From NCBI RefSeq assembly GCF_000160875.1, contig NZ_GG700805.1:186001-250000 (forward strand): a stretch of DNA of 64,000 nucleotides, given 5' to 3'. Shown one piece after another: positions 41,650-54,887 of the stretch. This stretch comes from Lactobacillus iners DSM 13335 (GTDB lineage: Bacteria; Bacillota; Bacilli; Lactobacillales; Lactobacillaceae). Position numbers and translations under genes: made by a program. Numbering within the stretch: position 1 is the stretch's first letter; the number at the start of each line of letters is the position of its first letter. A model generated the notes under the pieces. The model worked only from the letters and a program-made list of their open reading frames with translations. It was not told where the DNA came from and did no database searches.

Positions 41650-41802
41650 AAGGATAATGTTAGTTAGTATTGGAACACTGATATAACAGCATTTAGCAAG
41701 AATAAAAACTGCTTAAAAGGGTTTCTTTTGACATGAAAGTATGCCAAAAGTATGCCAGAATATAAACAGAACTCTTAGCTCTTTATGGCTAAGAGTTTTT
41801 TA
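41642..41802 (+). repeat. Direct repeat copy A at the guaA 3' end (att-like)
   Basis: Begins with GGGAATAAAA on the last codons of guaA and continues TTAGTTAG..TTGGAA, AGCATTTA, AAAAACT.CTTAAAA, TTGACAT..AA.TATGCCAAAA and a hairpin with T run. The same series of blocks recurs at 43269-43410. Copy A also carries a 19-nt stretch (41739-41757, GTATGCCAAAAGTATGCCA) found exactly at the end of the integrase gene (54847-54865). Interpreted as integrase attachment/arm-site sequence. Confidence 0.75.
41770..41802 (+). terminator. Terminator downstream of guaA
   Basis: AACTCTTAGC (41770-41779) pairs perfectly with GCTAAGAGTT (41788-41797), followed by six T. It lies just upstream of the HEPN gene start. 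Confidence 0.88.
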
Positions 41803-41821
41803 TTGGGAAAGAAGACTAATA

Positions 41822-43186
41822 ATGAATAAAGTAAAAAATCTTCCTAATTTAGCTAAAAAAATTAAACGTATCATTGGTAAAATGGTAAGAGAAAATAATA
41901 AATTACTAAAAAAGTCAATGTCAGAAGATTATGATATGAGAAAAGATCCCAACTTATATGCAGTAAAATTTGGTAATAGATTATTATTCATTACTAAAGG
42001 TGCACATGAAGATTTTGTTAATCTTTTGGAAAATGTTGAGATAGTATTCAATGCTGAAAATATAGAGTACGATATTGATCAAATATCTTCTAAGCTTGAG
42101 AAATTCGTTGATAACATTGTTTCTAATAATGAGCCTTATAATCTGGATATGATAAATAGTTTTATTGATAGTATTAAAAAACCCAATTATAAGATTTATT
42201 TCTTTAGATTATTTGATTTTGCATATAAAGGAAAAATTAGTCTTGGTCAAAACATTATAATTATTAGTGGTCAGGAACTGTTGAAAGAAATACCTGAAGC
42301 TGAAGATTTGAACCGTAAAGCGGAAGAAAATCCAAAATATGAAAAATTAATTCAGCCAGAAGATATTTTATTAGGAGTATCCGTAATAGATTCAGGGAAA
42401 AGCGATAAAAGCTATTATCGTGCTTTAGCTTCTGCTAATTATATAAATAATATTATTAATTTCCTAAATGGTTTTAATCATAAACCTAGCCGGGTATTAG
42501 AACTAAGTCAACATATTATTCAAGAAGACGGATTGTATCAATTTACTAATAAAAGTGGGCATTTTTCAACTAAACAAACGCCTGGAATTTTGGAAGACGG
42601 TTGGAGTACATCAACAGGCATAAATCCAGATAATAGAAAAAAAGCAAATATGAATTTTGATAAACGTTGGTTGCCAATAATTTCCTTAATTGTTGAAGAC
42701 TCAAATAAATTAACACCATTGCAAAAACAATGTGCAAGAGCCATTGATTGGATTGGTGATGGGATAGTTAACTCTAATCAAACTAAACAATTTTTGCAAA
42801 TTATGATCTCGCTTGAAACAATAGTTGAACAAGATCCGGATAAATTAAAAGATAAATTAGAGAAGGATAAGCTTTGGAAAGAGGGATTATCCGTTTCAAT
42901 TGAAGATCAATTAGTATCAATAATTAATTTAACTTGTTATCAGGGAGTTAAACCGCAGCAACTTAAGAAAAGCGATGCAGCCATTAAAAGAGCGTATGGA
43001 TTAAGATCGAGAATTACGCATGATGGGGAGAAATTTCCGCAGGTTGATGCGACTGAAATGCTTAATACGTGGTATGGTTTAATATATACAATTATTACTG
43101 ATGTTATGTTTACTAGTCGTTGGAATAATGTTTATGATTTGTGGAAAGCTGCAAATTTAAATATAAAAAACAATAAGAAGAATTAA
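41822..43186 (+). CDS. HEPN-domain protein, probable abortive-infection effector
   Basis: 454 residues from ATG 41822 (GGGAAAGAAG upstream). No signal peptide or membrane segment. The C-terminal quarter is helical and contains R395-S-R-I-T-H400, the R-x4-H ribonuclease motif of HEPN domains, in YGLRSRITHDGE. The N-terminal two thirds match nothing I can name. Such large N-terminal/HEPN proteins occur among anti-phage RNases (ApeA-like). The gene is alone between two att-like repeats and its own terminator, so it looks like a separately acquired module. Function inferred. Confidence 0.6.
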   Translation: MNKVKNLPNLAKKIKRIIGKMVRENNKLLKKSMSEDYDMRKDPNLYAVKFGNRLLFITKGAHEDFVNLLENVEIVFNAENIEYDIDQISSKLEKFVDNIVSNNEPYNLDMINSFIDSIKKPNYKIYFFRLFDFAYKGKISLGQNIIIISGQELLKEIPEAEDLNRKAEENPKYEKLIQPEDILLGVSVIDSGKSDKSYYRALASANYINNIINFLNGFNHKPSRVLELSQHIIQEDGLYQFTNKSGHFSTKQTPGILEDGWSTSTGINPDNRKKANMNFDKRWLPIISLIVEDSNKLTPLQKQCARAIDWIGDGIVNSNQTKQFLQIMISLETIVEQDPDKLKDKLEKDKLWKEGLSVSIEDQLVSIINLTCYQGVKPQQLKKSDAAIKRAYGLRSRITHDGEKFPQVDATEMLNTWYGLIYTIITDVMFTSRWNNVYDLWKAANLNIKNNKKN

Positions 43187-43268: not shown

Positions 43269-43410
43269 GGGAATAAAACCATTATATTAGTTAGAGTTGG
43301 AATGCCGATATATCAGCATTTAACAGGAACAAAAACTACTTAAAAAGGTATTAATTGACATAGAAATATGCCAAAAAGAAGGAGCTCTTAGTGTGATAAC
43401 TAAGGGCTTT
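43269..43410 (+). repeat. Direct repeat copy B (att-like)
   Basis: Starts GGGAATAAAA (43269-43278) like the guaA end, then follows the same block order as copy A at roughly 75-80 percent identity by eye, including TTGACATAGAAATATGCCAAAA. It ends with a hairpin AGCTCTTAG (43383-43391) / CTAAGGGCT (43400-43408) plus T run. The surrounding 43187-43491 spacer holds nothing else apart from the upstream region of the methyltransferase gene. Confidence 0.72.
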
Positions 43411-43491: not shown

Positions 43492-46212
43492 ATGGCTATA
43501 ACTGAAATAGAAGATGAGATATCAAATATTATTGAAAAAAATGATAAAGATAGTTTCATTTATGACTTCTTAGGAGTGTACGACATCCCTAAAGCAACAA
43601 TTACTAAATTGAAGAAAGGCATCAATAACTTAGCTGATGTTGCTGGTGAAGTTTACTTGAAGAATAAACTTTATTATAAGCAGACGGATAAGAATTTAAT
43701 GCAGTCTTTTACTGATGTTAAGGCTAAAGTAGATGAGTTAGGTACCAAGCCACGTTATATTTTTGTAACTAATTTTAAAGAAGTCTTAGCATATGATACT
43801 AAAACAGATAATACATTGAGCATTCCTTTTGAAAGATTGCCACAGAAGTTTGAATTCTTCTTAGCATGGAATGGAATTGAAAAGGCGGACTTTGATAAAG
43901 AGAATCCAGCTGATATTAGAGCGGCTGAAAGATTTGCTAAATTATACGACGTTATCGTTAAAGATAACCCAAATGCTACGAGAAAAGGTTTGAATCTTTT
44001 CTTAATTAGAGTACTATTTTGTCTTTTTGCAGAAGATACAGATATTTTTGAAAAGAATCTTTTTACTAATAGATTAAAGGAATTAACTCGACTTGATGGC
44101 AGTGATTTAGATAATTTTATTGGTCAGTTATTCAGTGTTTTAGATGTTAGAAAAGAAGATCGTCCAGTTGATACACCAAGTTGGTTAGCAGATTTTCCAT
44201 ACGTTGACGGTGATTTGTTTAAGGATCCGCATGAATCATTGAAGTTTACAGTTAAGTCTAGAAAGCTAATTATTGATGCTGGTGAGAAACTAGAATGGGA
44301 TCAGATTAATCCTGATATTCTGGGATCTATGCTTCAAGCTGTTGCAAGTGAAGACAGTCGTAGTCATTTGGGGATGCACTATACTTCAGTACCAAATATT
44401 ATGAAGGTTATTAAGCCTTTGTTCCTTGATGAGTTAATAAATGAATTTGATAAGAGGAAAGGAAGTTACAAGAAACTTCAACATCTTTATGAGCGTATTG
44501 GCAAAATTAAGTTTATGGATCCTGCTTGTGGTTCAGGTAATTTCTTGATTGTTACTTACAAGCAATTAAGACAATTAGAAATTGATATTTTGAAAGAGCA
44601 AAATAAAATTCTTGCTGAAGAAGGTAGCGGTAAAGCTATGATGTATTTACCTTCTGTAACGCTTGACCAGTTCTACGGAATTGAAATTGATGACTTTGCT
44701 TGTGATACTACACGTCTTTCATTATGGATTGCGGAACACCAGATGAATATTAAGCTTAGGGATGAAATTAATAATGCTGTGCGCCCTACTTTACCTTTGC
44801 AACATGCAGGAGCTATTGTCTGTGGGAATGCATTGAGACTAGATTGGGAGAAGATTTTACCTCATAAGAAAGATGATGAGGTTTATTTGTTTGGTAATCC
44901 ACCTTATTTGGGTTCACATGGAGCAAAGCAGAAAAAGACACATAAAGAAGATATTAAAGTGGTATTTGCTAACTTAAATGGAAATTATAAGGGGCTAGAT
45001 TATATTTCAGGATGGTTCATGTTAGGGGCGGAATACATTAATAATACTAATGCGACCTTGGCTTTTGTTGCCACGAGTTCTATCACACAAGGACAACAAG
45101 TTTTTGATTTATGGAATAAAATTTTAAATCTGAATATTGAAATATCATTTTGTTGGGAACCATTTACTTGGAATAATAATGCAAAAAACAATGCTAAAGT
45201 AACAGTTAACATTATAGGATTAACGAGTTTAAAAAAAGCAAACAATAAGAGAATATATACAGATAATTCGTTTAATAATACTTTTGAAAAAGTTGACAAC
45301 ATTTCACCATATTTAACCAATCATTCTACAATTTTTATTAAAAGTATTGGATCATCAATTAGCAATCTACCAGAAATGGATATGGGTGATATGGCTAATG
45401 ATGGAGGCAATAAAGCACCAGGTTTATTATTTACAATAGATGAGTATAAAAAGATTATTGAGCAGCATCCAGAAACAAAACAATATTTTAAAAGACATGT
45501 AGGAACTAAAGAATATATGTCTAGTACATGTCGTTACTGCCTTTGGATTGAAAAAAAAGAATATAATCTTTTAAATAAAATACCAGTATTTAGAAATCGT
45601 TTTATAAATGTATATAATCATCGACAATCAAGCTCAGATAAGGGTACTAATAATTTAGCCATAACTCCGTTTAAATTTAGAGATACTAAGATTGCGAAAG
45701 AATATACTATTGTAGTACCTAAAGTAAATACTGTTGGGAGATTATATATTCCAGCAGGTTTATTGACTAAAGATTACATTATTTCTGATTTGATGTTTGG
45801 CATTTATGATGGCCCAATTTGGGTATTAGGGTTGATTCTATCAAGATTACATTATGTTTGGATCAAGGCTTCATGCGGAAAGGAAGGAAAGAGCTATAGA
45901 TATTCTAAGAATTTAGGCTATAATACCTTCCCTGTTCCTCGCTTGTCTAGTCGTAGAAAAAAAGAAATTGAGGGGCTGGTTTTAAAAATATTGGATATAA
46001 GAGACGAAGAAGAAGGCACATTGAATGATTTATATGGTTCACCACTTGCTGAAAAAAATCCTAAGCCAATGAATCCTAGATTATTAAAAGCTCATCAAGA
46101 ACTTGATGAAGTGGTGGATCGAGCATATAAGTCGAATGGCTTTAAAGGTGATAATGATAGATTAGCTTTATTATTAGATATGTATAGTAGGAAAATAAAA
46201 AATGAAGAATAG
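43492..46212 (+). CDS. MmeI-like class I DNA adenine methyltransferase (type IIG/ISP-like)
   Basis: 906 residues. SAM motif I FMDPACGSGNF lies near residues 340-350 and the catalytic motif IV GNPPYLG near 468-474, the order of amino-methyltransferases. An N-terminal domain of about 320 residues (with YIFVTNFKEVLAYDT) and a C-terminal target-recognition-like region with YRYSKNLGYNTFPVPRLS are as in MmeI/type IIG enzymes. A clear PD-(D/E)xK nuclease motif is not obvious to me in the N-terminus. First gene of a four-gene operon; overlaps the next by 11 nt. Probably the modification and specificity component. Confidence 0.85.
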   Translation: MAITEIEDEISNIIEKNDKDSFIYDFLGVYDIPKATITKLKKGINNLADVAGEVYLKNKLYYKQTDKNLMQSFTDVKAKVDELGTKPRYIFVTNFKEVLAYDTKTDNTLSIPFERLPQKFEFFLAWNGIEKADFDKENPADIRAAERFAKLYDVIVKDNPNATRKGLNLFLIRVLFCLFAEDTDIFEKNLFTNRLKELTRLDGSDLDNFIGQLFSVLDVRKEDRPVDTPSWLADFPYVDGDLFKDPHESLKFTVKSRKLIIDAGEKLEWDQINPDILGSMLQAVASEDSRSHLGMHYTSVPNIMKVIKPLFLDELINEFDKRKGSYKKLQHLYERIGKIKFMDPACGSGNFLIVTYKQLRQLEIDILKEQNKILAEEGSGKAMMYLPSVTLDQFYGIEIDDFACDTTRLSLWIAEHQMNIKLRDEINNAVRPTLPLQHAGAIVCGNALRLDWEKILPHKKDDEVYLFGNPPYLGSHGAKQKKTHKEDIKVVFANLNGNYKGLDYISGWFMLGAEYINNTNATLAFVATSSITQGQQVFDLWNKILNLNIEISFCWEPFTWNNNAKNNAKVTVNIIGLTSLKKANNKRIYTDNSFNNTFEKVDNISPYLTNHSTIFIKSIGSSISNLPEMDMGDMANDGGNKAPGLLFTIDEYKKIIEQHPETKQYFKRHVGTKEYMSSTCRYCLWIEKKEYNLLNKIPVFRNRFINVYNHRQSSSDKGTNNLAITPFKFRDTKIAKEYTIVVPKVNTVGRLYIPAGLLTKDYIISDLMFGIYDGPIWVLGLILSRLHYVWIKASCGKEGKSYRYSKNLGYNTFPVPRLSSRRKKEIEGLVLKILDIRDEEEGTLNDLYGSPLAEKNPKPMNPRLLKAHQELDEVVDRAYKSNGFKGDNDRLALLLDMYSRKIKNEE

Positions 46213-46915
46213 AATACCGCTTGTTTTATTAAATGATGTTGAAGATCAAATATCACAACATTTTTCTGCAAATGAACTTATTGATTTAACTTATCAGTTT
46301 GCTCAAAGTTTTAATAAGCATATTCCTATTGAAGTACCAGATTATGCTTTATTTAATAATAAAAAAGAACTTTTATCAAAAAACTTAGATGCACTGTCTG
46401 ATGAACAAAAGGTAGATTTTCTTTCACAAATAAAATATCATAGTCGACTTTCTGAAGATGATTTTCTTCGCGATGAAATTGATTTACTTGTAAAAGATGC
46501 GAGCGATGGGGTAATAAAAGCCCGAAATTCGGTTTCAACATTATTGGAGACTTATTCAATTGATTTAAAAAATCAATGGCAGAGAACCTATAGATTTTAT
46601 GATCATTTAGATTATCGGAATGCTTTAGATAATATGCGTCTAACCATTGAATTATTAATAAAACGAATTACTGGTTCAGAAGCTTCACTTGAAAATCAGA
46701 AAAGTGCATTAGGTAAGTTCTTTGAAGATAAAGATATAAGTAAAGAAGTTAGAAATTTGTTTTTTAAAATGTTAGACATGTATGAAAAAATTCAAAATCA
46801 TGAAGCTAAGCATAATCTACCTCAAAATTTGAATTCTAAAGAAATAAAGTTTTTAATGAATCAATCAACAGTAATAATAAAGTTTTTAATAGATTGTGAT
46901 AAAGGAATCTCTTAA
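46202..46915 (+). CDS. Unknown helical protein, Abi/HEPN-like C-terminus
   Basis: 237 residues, all-helical, starting inside the methyltransferase 3' end. The C-terminal part (IELLIKRITGSEASLENQKSAL... then KIQNHEAKHNLP... and a final hydrophobic helix) resembles the C-terminal domain of abortive-infection proteins, which often read xxGKHG before a last helix. No enzymatic motif is certain. Lying between methyltransferase and helicase with only 2 nt to the latter, it is presumably a system-specific subunit. Confidence 0.55.
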   Translation: MKNRIPLVLLNDVEDQISQHFSANELIDLTYQFAQSFNKHIPIEVPDYALFNNKKELLSKNLDALSDEQKVDFLSQIKYHSRLSEDDFLRDEIDLLVKDASDGVIKARNSVSTLLETYSIDLKNQWQRTYRFYDHLDYRNALDNMRLTIELLIKRITGSEASLENQKSALGKFFEDKDISKEVRNLFFKMLDMYEKIQNHEAKHNLPQNLNSKEIKFLMNQSTVIIKFLIDCDKGIS

Positions 46916-46917
46916 CC

Positions 46918-48867
46918 ATGCAAGATAAAAATGTAGTTGAAGTAAATTACCATCAAACTGGTAAAAGCACAAATACCGATGAATTAGGAATGCGTGAAAT
47001 GCAGGCACGTGTTTATCAACACCGCAATTCGCAATATCTTTTAGTAAAAGCTCCACCGGCTTCAGGTAAATCTAGAGCTTTAATGTTTGTTGCACTTGAT
47101 AAATTAGCTAATCAAGGTGTTAAAAAGATTATTGTAGCAGTTCCAGAAAGATCGATTGGTAGATCATTTAAGAATACCGAATTGGTCAAATATGGCTTTT
47201 ATGAAGATTGGAAGGTTGACCCACAATATGATTTAACCCTTCCAGGTGGGGATGAAAGTAAAGTACAAAAGCTAGTGGACTTTCTTAATTCTTTAGAAAG
47301 TAGAATTTTAATTTGTACGCATGCTACCTTAAGATTTGCCTATGAAAAAGTAGCTGATGATCGTGCTTTTGACAATGTAATGGTTGCTATTGATGAATTT
47401 CACCATGTTTCATCTAATGATAGTTCTGTTCTAGGCACTGCTTTGAAGAATATCATGCATAATTCTTCTGCTCATATTATGGCTATGACGGGTTCTTACT
47501 TTAGAGGAGATTCAGAGCCGATTCTTTCTCCAGAAGATGAACAACTATTTGATAAGGTAACTTATACCTATTATGAACAACTTGATGGTTATCAGTATTT
47601 GAAGTCTTTCGGCATTGACTATAAGTTTTATCAAGGTTCGTATTTGGACGCTTTACCAGATGCGATTGATACAACTAAGAAGACAATTATTCATATTCCA
47701 AGTATTAATTCTAGTGCATCAACTAAGGATAAATACAATGAGGTTGATGCTATCTTTGATGCAATTGGTACTCTCGTTGATAGAGATGATAAAACTGGTA
47801 TTTATACAATTAAAAGTAAGCAGACTGGTAAATTATTGAAGGTTGCTGATCTTGTTAATGAGGATGGACGAGAAAAGGTTCAAGAATACTTAAGAAATAT
47901 CAGTAGTGCTGATGACTTGGATATTATTGTAGCTCTTAATATGGCTAAAGAAGGTTTTGATTGGCCATGGGCTGAACAAGCTTTGACTATTGGGTATCGT
48001 CATTCGTTAACAGAAATTGTTCAAATTATTGGTCGGGTTACTCGTGATAGTTCTAATAAAACACATGCACAGTTTACCAATATGATTGAACAACCTGATG
48101 CTAAAGATGATGCAGTACAGTACGCAGTTAACCAGATATTGAAGGCTATTACTGCATCCCTTTTGATGGAACAAGTCCTTGCACCTGAAATTCATTTGAA
48201 GAGAAGAAATCACAAGTCTGATACTCCTTCTGGGGATGCAGATATTTTAATAAAAGGCTTAAAAGAGCCAACTACTAAGAGAGCTCAAAGTATTATTGAA
48301 AATGATTTACCTGATCTTAAAGCAGCTATTTTGCAAGATAATGATGTGAAAAACGGTATTGCTGCTAATGTAGATGCAGAGGTAATGAATAAAGAACTAA
48401 TTCCCAAAGTTATTATGACTCGTTACCCAGATTTGAACAATGATGAAGTAGAACAAGTTAGTCAATATGTTGTGGCCGATACTGTTTTGCGTCATGCTAA
48501 GGTTGATTCTTCAGTTGATCAGGAAGGCAATACAAACGAATTTCTTAAAATGGCGGATAAGTTTATTAATGTTCATGATCTAGATATTAACTTGATTGAG
48601 TCAATCAATCCATTCCAAAGAGCATATGACGTAATGTCGCAAAATATTGATAGCAACACTCTTAGAATTATTGAACGTTCCATCGATGCGAAGAAATATG
48701 ACTTCTCTAATGAAGAATTGATGCAATTATTTATGAATGCCAAAGCCTTTGTAGAAAAGACAGGACGTCGACCAGACAAAAACTCTAACAATGAAGAAGA
48801 AGTTAGAATGGCTTATGCATTGGCTACGTTAAGTGATATGAGGGCTAGACGAAATGAAAATAGATAA
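46918..48867 (+). CDS. DExH-box superfamily 2 helicase of a defence operon
   Basis: 649 residues. Walker A PPASGKS near residue 47, DEFHH (motif II) near 159, MTGSYFRGDS as motif III, and the arginine-finger motif VI QIIGRVTRDS near 367. A C-terminal extension ends in FVEKTGRRPDKNSNNEEEVRMA, a helicase-associated-like motif also seen at the N-terminus of the next protein. Likely an ATP-driven translocase for restriction. Overlaps the nuclease gene by 14 nt. Confidence 0.85.
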   Translation: MQDKNVVEVNYHQTGKSTNTDELGMREMQARVYQHRNSQYLLVKAPPASGKSRALMFVALDKLANQGVKKIIVAVPERSIGRSFKNTELVKYGFYEDWKVDPQYDLTLPGGDESKVQKLVDFLNSLESRILICTHATLRFAYEKVADDRAFDNVMVAIDEFHHVSSNDSSVLGTALKNIMHNSSAHIMAMTGSYFRGDSEPILSPEDEQLFDKVTYTYYEQLDGYQYLKSFGIDYKFYQGSYLDALPDAIDTTKKTIIHIPSINSSASTKDKYNEVDAIFDAIGTLVDRDDKTGIYTIKSKQTGKLLKVADLVNEDGREKVQEYLRNISSADDLDIIVALNMAKEGFDWPWAEQALTIGYRHSLTEIVQIIGRVTRDSSNKTHAQFTNMIEQPDAKDDAVQYAVNQILKAITASLLMEQVLAPEIHLKRRNHKSDTPSGDADILIKGLKEPTTKRAQSIIENDLPDLKAAILQDNDVKNGIAANVDAEVMNKELIPKVIMTRYPDLNNDEVEQVSQYVVADTVLRHAKVDSSVDQEGNTNEFLKMADKFINVHDLDINLIESINPFQRAYDVMSQNIDSNTLRIIERSIDAKKYDFSNEELMQLFMNAKAFVEKTGRRPDKNSNNEEEVRMAYALATLSDMRARRNENR

Positions 48868-50077
48868 TGCTCGTCCTATTCGTTCACTAGATGATATATT
48901 TAATGATCCAGCCGCTAATGAGTTATTAGCCAAACCCAAGAAAAAACGGGTAACTTATGACCCAGAAGTTGAAAAATTTAAAGAAATTGAGAATTGGGTA
49001 AAAGAGCATAATGGCAAAGAACCTGAAAAGACCACTGATCTTAGTAGACTAGGTGAAAGAAAATTAGCTAGCAGATTAAAGGGAATTCGAGAGGATCTAG
49101 AAAGAATAGAATTACTTAAACCCTATGATGAATTAGGTTTATTAAAGACAGAAAATCAAAATGTTTCTTTGAAAGAAAAAGTCAGTCAAGAAAAAAAGAC
49201 CTTTAATTCTCTTGATGATATTTTGAATGATGATTCTGCTTTATTTGATAATTCTGGTCAATCATTAAATTCTAAATTATTTGATACTGGTTCACTCAAT
49301 GCCTATAAAAAATCTCAAGAGAATGTTGCCAAAAATAAATCTAAGAGAAAAGCAATGGATGATTTTAATAAATATCGTCCATTATTTAAGCAGGTGCAAG
49401 CAGAATTAACTTCTGGCAAGCGTCATTTAATAAGGTATGGTAATAATAAACTCAAATTGCATGGATTTTATGTTCTAAAGGGTCAACTAATGTACATTGA
49501 ATCTATTGGTGCAGAGTTTAAGAATAATAATCGTAGCGATACTGATACTGATGCACGTTTACACGTTATTTATGATAATGGAACCGAGAATTTTCCTTTA
49601 AGAAATGGCTTAATAGCTTCCTTATATGGATCTAAACAACGTGGTGGCGGTGGAAAGATAGTCACTGAACCAGATGATAAATTTGAATTTGGTGAAGACG
49701 ATCAGGTAACTGGCTATATTTACGTATTAAAGTCACTCAGTAATAATGCAGATGTAAAGAGGATTCAAGAAGATCATCCTTTGTATAAGGTAGGTTTTAC
49801 TTCTGGAACCGTTGAAAGAAGAATTGCCAATGCAGAAAATGAATCAACTTATTTATATGGTCCGGTTAAAGTAGTAGCAGAATATCAAGTTATAAACCTG
49901 AATCCAGAGGCTTTAGAAACAGCTCTGCATCATGCTTTAGTCCAATACCGCTTAGACGTAGATATTAAAGCTGGTAATGGTAGGATTATCCATCCTAGAG
50001 AGTGGTTTGTAGTTGATTTGAATACGATCACGGATATCGTTAATGAGATTATGAGTAAGTTGCAAATGAGTAAATGA
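48854..50077 (+). CDS. GIY-YIG (T5orf172-type) nuclease of a defence operon
   Basis: 407 residues. The C-terminal domain (about 285-400) has GYIYVLKS as GIY strand, YKVGFTSGTVERRI as YIG strand with the catalytic arginine, and PEALETALHHAL with a candidate metal-binding glutamate. The N-terminus repeats a short acidic motif, SLDDIFNDPAANELL at about 10-24 and SLDDILNDDSALFD near 123. A motif EHNGKEPEKTTDLSRLGERKLA resembles the helicase C-terminus. Probably the DNA-cleaving subunit. No terminator directly follows; the structured RNA region begins 36 nt downstream. Confidence 0.8.
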   Translation: MKIDNARPIRSLDDIFNDPAANELLAKPKKKRVTYDPEVEKFKEIENWVKEHNGKEPEKTTDLSRLGERKLASRLKGIREDLERIELLKPYDELGLLKTENQNVSLKEKVSQEKKTFNSLDDILNDDSALFDNSGQSLNSKLFDTGSLNAYKKSQENVAKNKSKRKAMDDFNKYRPLFKQVQAELTSGKRHLIRYGNNKLKLHGFYVLKGQLMYIESIGAEFKNNNRSDTDTDARLHVIYDNGTENFPLRNGLIASLYGSKQRGGGGKIVTEPDDKFEFGEDDQVTGYIYVLKSLSNNADVKRIQEDHPLYKVGFTSGTVERRIANAENESTYLYGPVKVVAEYQVINLNPEALETALHHALVQYRLDVDIKAGNGRIIHPREWFVVDLNTITDIVNEIMSKLQMSK

Positions 50078-50112
50078 AAATATTAAGCAATTATAAAGTT
50101 TTATGAATCAAA

Positions 50113-53449: not shown

Positions 53450-53653
53450 ATGAAAAAAGAGTTTGTTAATTATAAAGATCTTCGCCAACTGGGTTTTGGC
53501 GACAACCAAGCTAGAAGAATTATTCGGCTAGCTAAGAAAAAGCTGGTAGAAAAAGGATATGCGTTTTACAATGGAAAACGAGTGGGGCTTGTTCCTGCTA
53601 AAGCTGTTGCTGAAGTTATCGGTGTTCCGTTTAAGGAGGACGATAACTTTTGA
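53450..53653 (+). CDS. DUF3173 small helix-turn-helix protein (excisionase-like)
   Basis: 67 residues: VNYKDLRQLGFGDNQARRIIRLAKK is a helix-turn-helix-like segment, and the protein belongs to DUF3173, usually found directly before tyrosine integrases of Gram-positive elements. A role in excision is inferred from that position. Its stop codon overlaps the integrase start (TTTTGA). Confidence 0.75.
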   Translation: MKKEFVNYKDLRQLGFGDNQARRIIRLAKKKLVEKGYAFYNGKRVGLVPAKAVAEVIGVPFKEDDNF

Positions 53654-54887
53654 AAACGCGTTACCCAAACGTTTACCAAGATAAAAATGGTAAATATTTC
53701 TATCAAATCTTCATTGGCACTGATGCCAATGGTAAAAAGAAGTTAAAAAAGGGTAGAAGGGATGCGTTGAAGCATCCCTTTTCTTCGGCTTATCAAGCAT
53801 ACAAAGAGGCACAACGTGTTCAAGCACTATATGCTAATGTTTCAGCTGATAATATTAGCTATGCTTCTTTTATGAAGGATCGTTATTTACCCAAATACCG
53901 TGGAGATGTTGAAGCAAGTACTTACGATACTCACAATTTAATGATGCTGAAAGGCGTAGATTTTTTAGGAGAAATCAAGCTTAAGGACATTAAAGTAATA
54001 GACTGTGAAAAATATCGTACGTGGTTATTAACGGACTCAGGTTTTTCTAGAAATTATGCTAGTTTGATTTATACTGCATTTCGTCAAAGTCTAGATTATG
54101 CCGTAGAAATCGGGTTAATAGCTTCTAACCCTTCTTTAAAGACTAAATCAATTCCAAAAGGTCGAAATATTGAAAATTATTGGACAATGCCAGAATTTGA
54201 GAAGGTATTAGCTTCTATCAATACTGATACTTTTTATGAAGAGTTAATCTACGTTACTTTTCTTTTCTACTATCGGATTGGATGCCGAGTTAACGAGGGA
54301 TTTGCTTTAAGATGTCAGATATTGATCTAATTAACGGAAAAGTTAGATTTATCAACAATTTGCACTATTCAAGTAAGCTAAACTATGAACTTGTACCATA
54401 TTTAAAGAATGATGCAAGTAGAAGAACGGTTACCATTGATGCTGAATTACTTGAAGTTTTAAAGAAGTGGAAGAAGGAACAGGCTAAATATAATATTCAT
54501 GATTTCGTATTCAGTTGCGATAACTGCCCACTTAATAAGTCTACTTTAAGTGTGTGGCTTAAACGTTATTCTAAATTGGCTGGAGTATCTAGAATCAATG
54601 GCCGAGGATTACGCCACTCTAATGCTTCATATTTGATTGCTGAACTTGGTGCTGATGTCTTAACGGTGAGTCATAGGCTCGGACATAAAACGCCAATGAC
54701 AACGCTTAAGTACTATGCTCACATGTTTAGCAATAATGATATTGAATTAGCTTCTAAGATGGAAGGAAGCATGGATATTCAACCTGCCTCACATTCTAAA
54801 ATTCACTTTAATGGTAACCAGCATATTAAAGGGAATAGTATTACAGGTATGCCAAAAGTATGCCAAAACAAGAAAAAGCCAGCTTAA
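53650..54887 (+). pseudogene. Tyrosine recombinase (integrase) with a 1-nt deletion
   Basis: TTG 53650 starts MKTRYPNVYQDKNGKYFYQI, an arm-type AP2-like domain plus a core-binding domain, and the catalytic arginine in GCRVNEGFALR. At about 54313 the expected TGGTCAGAT reads TGTCAGAT; one missing G shifts the frame. The second frame continues SDIDLINGK and holds RGLRHSNAS, HRLGHKT and the nucleophile TLKYYAHM. About 412 residues if repaired. The last codons carry the TATGCCAAAAGTATGCC repeat. Confidence 0.87.

Follow-up and report, generated by a model that had tools for sequence, protein, structure and literature searches.

The window analysed here is a stretch of 64,000 nucleotides (nt) from Lactobacillus iners DSM 13335 (contig NZ_GG700805.1, positions 186,001 to 250,000). 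It contains an operon of four open reading frames (ORFs), all intact, for a methyltransferase (M), a small helical protein (S), a superfamily 2 (SF2) helicase (H) and a GIY-YIG protein (G). Their coordinates and those of the associated features are given in Table 1. M and S overlap by 11 nt, S and H are separated by a gap of 2 nt, and H and G overlap by 14 nt. The original prediction, which was made from the sequence alone, had regarded four genes coupled by exactly these junctions as an undescribed restriction-type defence system, and the ORF coordinates agree with its description of the junctions. M, H and G form a set that is already known in outline; what is new is the fourth gene, which occupies an exchangeable slot between M and H. 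Promoter and terminator scans of the operon gave no signal above shuffle level.

Table 1. Features of the operon and of the surrounding island (positions in the window; TRD, target-recognition domain; aa, amino acids)
Feature	Position	Strand	Length	Basis
M: MmeI/DnmA-type adenine DNA methyltransferase with TRD, without nuclease strand	43492..46212	+	906 aa	ORF call
S: helical protein, PADLOC PDC-S32 family	46202..46915	+	237 aa	ORF call
H: SF2 helicase	46918..48867	+	649 aa	ORF call
G: T5orf172 GIY-YIG protein	48854..50077	+	407 aa	ORF call
Target-recognition region of M, without blastn match to L. amylovorus L001	45103..45894	+		blastn blocks
M/H slot, without blastn match to L. kefiranofaciens L010	46207..46917	+		blastn blocks 45796-46206 and 46918-50098
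attL-like core GTATGCCAAAAGTATGCCARAA, just beyond guaA 3' end	41739..41760	+		sequence comparison
attR-like core GTATGCCAAAAGTATGCCARAA, within end of second integrase ORF	54847..54868	+		sequence comparison
Imperfect (80%) second copy of guaA-proximal stretch, immediately 5' of M	43269..43376	+		sequence comparison

H has the Pfam domains DEAD and ResIII and carries, labelled by eye, the motifs APPASGKS (Walker A), DEFH and QIIGRVTRD; sequence relatives of H were not found in the PDB at E <= 0.001. G matches the Pfam domains MUG113 and T5orf172. Together these assignments bear out the predicted restriction-modification (R-M) type set with a separate helicase and a separate GIY-YIG protein. 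G is composed of a helical N-terminus, an SH3-like middle part (residues 190-272) and a C-terminal GIY-YIG domain (280-407), as assigned by VIA-align, which mainly covered residues 186-272; Foldseek returned nothing for G at E <= 0.001. The GIY-YIG residues Y290, K312, G314, R323, E355 and H359 are invariant across all 93 or 94 lettered rows of the alignment. A separate ORF of 92-96 aa corresponds to the N-terminus of G in L134, L135 and L006 (in L021, L022 and L155 the first ORF was seen), with the rest of G in a second ORF where this was looked at, and the N-terminal domain may be a protein of its own in some lineages.

By Pfam, M contains all five MmeI domains (MmeI_N, _hel, _Mtase at 1.3e-96, _TRD and _C), and its profile aligns with the type IIL enzyme MmeI (PDB 5hr4) at 858 bits. 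It differs from MmeI in its nuclease motif: the profile has a gap where MmeI has D70..E80-x-K82 (the D..IEMK strand), and pattern scans of M for D-x(9-11)-E-x-K found no match. M thus has no evident nuclease motif of its own, as had been predicted, and on this evidence it would not be expected to act by itself as a type IIG nuclease. MmeI-like matches at E <= 1e-60 occur in 47 of 397 Lactobacillaceae genomes, 18 with H and 29 without. In 15 of the 18 proteins that were tested out of the 29 H-less genomes, the pattern D-x(9-11)-hydrophobic-E/Q-x-K is present, and the other 3 read D..IEME. The same pattern occurs in 5 of 71 full-length M proteins from H loci; four of these matches (residues 100-122) are not in the motif region, but the fifth (L038, residue 73) is, and the pattern alone cannot dismiss L038. 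A looser pattern also matched one of nine M proteins (L005). Within the sample, absence of the internal nuclease therefore accompanies the presence of H and G.

Compared with the Lactobacillus amylovorus locus L001, all four genes look to be under purifying selection, with dN/dS (nonsynonymous and synonymous divergence) of 0.036/0.374 for S, 0.020/0.752 for H, 0.113/2.26 for G and 0.19/0.85 for M. S has the lowest dS (0.37 versus 0.75, 2.26 and 0.85), which suggests that this stretch was recently exchanged. In M, the blastn blocks flanking the target-recognition region (85-87% identity to L001) stop at 45102 and restart at 45895; in the comparison with L. kefiranofaciens L010 the unmatched part is 45275-45795 (blocks stop at 45274 and restart at 45796).

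The neighbourhood survey confirmed that the genes belong together by more than chance: M, H and G co-occur, and S is found repeatedly in one position between M and H. M-H-G is found in the same order in loci of many phyla. The genome loci surveyed were the best 80 of 557 by similarity to H; in all 79 that could be evaluated, G is directly 3' of H, and the distance between the two never exceeds 91 nt. Within the 397 Lactobacillaceae genomes, H is present in 20, G in 21 and this M in 18, and these occurrences coincide. A pattern scan of IMG/VR detected H in 43 contigs, 39 of which have G downstream and 33 M upstream, and pattern scans for S found it in none of the contigs; a viral origin was considered and rejected. 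The phage collection held 4 records for H, none reaching 80% coverage, and a scan of the genome contigs with G as the sole query yielded no relative. On the Pediococcus pentosaceus plasmid pP76 (L009, 7677 bp), the annotated genes are M-H-G alone, and in L036 the order is permuted to H-G-M, with a RhuM-like ORF 5' of H.

The claim that the system is undescribed had to be given up. M-H-G matches dnmA-yeeB-yeeC of Bacillus subtilis, as this cluster is described in PMC9973331 and PMC7261158, and the second gene matches PDC-S32. The original prediction had itself named a match of the set to a named system as evidence against it, and such a match exists for three of the four genes. According to these papers, the B. 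subtilis cluster encodes the same three kinds of protein, its gene order is kept in other species (PMC9973331), and it was horizontally acquired (PMC9973331, PMC7261158); its Type I-like nature was proposed by Morgan et al. 2009, as cited in PMC7261158. Both sets consist of an MmeI-like methyltransferase without nuclease motif, an SF2 helicase and a T5orf172/GIY-YIG protein on one strand, a correspondence drawn from the domain descriptions in the papers and from Bacillaceae-type loci (L018, L019). However, yeeB and yeeC take the first and second positions after dnmA, whereas in the window S intervenes between M and H; an empty methyltransferase-helicase junction is usual in the published survey and was not taken as defining. 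BREX, DISARM, MADS and Type I were rejected, as the operon proteins give only weak or partial matches to them. Core partners (PglZ, DrmB, other MAD proteins) are absent from the four operon proteins and the upstream ORF, the weak partial matches of M to PglX, DrmMI and MAD2 fall short of the NCBIfam cut-offs, and PADLOC assigns only weak partial matches to H and G. A Type I system would have HsdR, HsdM and HsdS subunits, but there is no HsdS among the operon proteins; the TRD is inside M and the nuclease is of the GIY-YIG kind.

The clearest example of slot exchange is the window compared with L. kefiranofaciens L010. The M DNA is 84.6% and 75.7% identical on either side of the TRD region, the slot has no match, and identity sets in again exactly where the H start codon begins and continues at 86.9% to beyond the end of G, so that unalignable DNA in the operon is limited to the TRD region and the slot. 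The L010 slot holds a gene for a 250-aa protein (L010 9237-9989), which BLASTP found unrelated to S and which was rejected as an S homologue. This protein has no Pfam or PADLOC match; by eye, it contains RNASSH, a match to Rx4H.

Of the 71 slots in loci where M precedes H, 28 contain genes (gap 471-4357 nt) and 43 are empty, which is no unbiased rate given the selection by similarity to H. Slot genes were called mechanically as ORFs of >=80 aa; part of them were scanned with Pfam, and several classes were assigned by BLAST to representatives. The occupants include RhuM (PF13310), Schlafen AlbA_2 with HATPase_c_4, Fic, Abi_C and AAA_13 proteins as well as several without a Pfam match. In L086 the slot gap is overstated, since H itself is split, but a Schlafen-type gene is present nonetheless. 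The AAA_13 protein matches PDC-S06, and we take it to resemble RloC. One Lactobacillaceae genome (G016/L129) carries SLATT_4 and SMODS/AGS_C genes in the slot (L129 5118-7001), presumably a CBASS-type pair. In L026 and L060, YhcG and AIPR proteins lie 5' of H, but the contig stops before any M is reached, so both loci were left uncounted. A slot gene is present in 3 of the 17 Lactobacillaceae loci having M and H on one contig, and an ORF is present in 8 of the 33 IMG/VR contigs with M and H, two of which appear to be a single element. On an 87-row tree of H, slot occupancy requires at least 20 changes (mean 27.9 and lowest value 20 with shuffled labels) and slot class at least 26 (shuffled mean 34.7, lowest 27). 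The slot is thus subject to frequent turnover with some inheritance, its occupancy showing a degree of clustering in the tree. Among the papers listed in literature searches that covered mainly openly accessible work, none dealt with the M/H slot.

S itself matches the PADLOC model for PDC-S32 (PDLC04998) with 111.7 bits over residues 1-234 of 237, which is nearly its full length. We know of no function for PDC-S32, and the term was not found in the mainly openly accessible literature searched. A profile of S gave 8 matches in 75 Lactobacillus genomes, namely four strong ones (284-342 bits), all located in M-S-H-G, and four weak ones (62-93 bits), none of which is located there. In 398 Bacilli genomes it gave 2 matches (112 bits), both in M-S-H-G and both outside the set of 75 Lactobacillus genomes. 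Counting the window and an L. amylovorus plasmid, S members are in the M/H slot in 8 of 8 cases, or 8 of 12 if the weak relatives are included; the line between members (>=112 bits) and relatives (<=93 bits) was set after the surroundings were known. Most of the 8 members overlap or abut both neighbouring genes. Database relatives of S (66 and 73 proteins) came without genomic surroundings. One weak relative in Lactobacillus (L190 5863-6726) is situated, by eye, directly 3' of hsdM-hsdS of a Type I system.

The second gene had been predicted to be "Abi-like". Pfam does not support this, for S has nothing near the cut-off and Abi_C is likewise unmatched in the 23 S proteins scanned, and assignment to the Abi_C family was rejected. 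Four relatives of S bear a precomputed PF14355 (Abi_C) label, and hhalign of the S profile against the Abi_C protein of L024 gave a weak result (24%). What speaks for the prediction is the predicted fold: in the model, the C-terminal part of S (about 103-237) resembles HEPN RNases according to VIA-align, which mainly tested residues 103-237; Foldseek returned no row for S at E <= 0.001. The HEPN motif Rx4-6H is not intact, as S reads QNxxxKH at 198-204, with Gln in place of the catalytic Arg and with Asn, Lys and His kept. S may have a HEPN fold.

With a probability of about two in three, we interpret the operon as a split Type I-like R-M system of the DnmA-YeeB-YeeC kind, in which a HEPN-fold protein, S, is embedded as a guard or accessory subunit. 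M would recognise a short asymmetric site and methylate one adenine in it; at an unmodified site, it would pass the DNA on to H and G, of which H would move along or remodel it using ATP and G would cut it. S would be a HEPN-fold accessory that is silent while the M-H-G complex works, and would act by RNA binding or cleavage once the complex is blocked or engaged in infection, as PrrC guards EcoprrI. We prefer a guard or complex-dependent role of S because of the slot, the near-exclusive placement of S and the precedent of PrrC. As in the window, an R-M operon there contains an embedded gene, prrC, that is not itself an R-M gene and encodes a HEPN-class effector, but EcoprrI is a Type IC system (PMC12707154), and PrrC combines an ABC-ATPase part with an intact HEPN site (PMC3710099), neither of which is found in S. 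DarTG2 within a Type I R-M system is a further case of a toxin-type module between R-M genes, with the difference that host system and cargo are others and the slot is hsdS/hsdR instead of M/H (PMC12255303). Confidence in this interpretation and in the alternatives for S overlaps, as the latter concern one part of the same system.

S could instead be embedded cargo, i.e. a free-standing defence gene that uses the promoter and mobility of the operon and stays outside the restriction complex. We give this a substantial chance, if one below even. The slot hosts unrelated genes including the SMODS and SLATT pair, its occupancy changes often on the H tree, relatives of S occur outside the slot, and PDCs were discovered through 'guilt-by-embedding', as PMC12988326 states. 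However, S members proper are confined to the slot, in and beyond Lactobacillus, and are mostly joined tightly to both neighbours. Somewhat more tentatively, S might be no toxin but a small non-catalytic RNA- or protein-binding subunit with a tuning effect on M or H, for instance as a bridge between the two. The exchange of the catalytic Arg for Gln with the remaining motif residues kept fits this idea, as do the position of S between both partners and the restriction of its members to this operon; the many empty slots, and the likely effectors that the slot carries elsewhere, do not. A wider proposal, which we consider rather unlikely, is that the M/H junction is a general docking slot for swappable back-up immunity that acts when phages defeat restriction, with PDC-S32 as a dedicated fourth subunit sensing the state of M-H-G in lactobacilli and some other Bacilli.

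It is improbable, in our estimate, that the operon is, as has been suggested for B. subtilis, a relic in which restriction is dead, M is kept as an orphan epigenetic methyltransferase and S, H and G are carried along. The B. subtilis cluster gave negative results in phage and transformation tests and showed no restriction, as reported in PMC9973331 and PMC7261158, and relatives exist in which M has several stops (G025) or is spread over four ORFs (G255/L131) or in which G is a remnant with stops (G200). On the other hand, the four operon ORFs in the window are intact with low dN/dS, the family keeps its GIY-YIG residues without variation, and deletion of dnmA and yeeB in V. crassostreae leads to higher sensitivity to some phages (PMC9973331). 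An empty slot may explain the lack of defence in the B. subtilis version. The remaining explanation, an ordinary type IIG/IIL enzyme in which M alone modifies and cuts and S, H and G are mere neighbours, agrees with the PADLOC label of M (REase_MTase_IIG, 958 bits) but is very improbable in view of the missing MmeI nuclease strand and of the motif-bearing Lactobacillaceae relatives in H-less genomes.

M-H-G is a widespread, little-studied restriction candidate that is mislabelled by a standard defence tool, PADLOC, with M called type IIG. Its rigid H-G pair and open M/H slot offer a direct and testable route to proteins that guard M-H-G. With its plausible HEPN fold and missing catalytic residue, S lends itself to the question of whether embedded guards act by RNA cleavage or by binding.

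The predicted location of the operon in a mobile island at guaA is supported by the two att-like cores (Table 1). Since the stretch next to guaA occurs a second time (80%) upstream of M, the element may be nested or tandem. Between two att-like copies lies a 481-aa ORF (41741-43186) without Pfam, PADLOC, NCBIfam or PHROGs match. Close to its end it carries RSRITH, which by eye is like a HEPN Rx4-6H site, and it is possibly a separate abortive gene within the tandem island. The integrase at 53650-54887 is split over ORFs of 226 and 191 aa, which overlap in different frames; the element may therefore be stuck, or the sequence may contain an error. In several Lactobacillaceae, guaA is found upstream of the operon or its remnant (L010, L012, L013 and L014; by eye also L129 and L108), and the guaA 3' end thus looks like a common insertion site.

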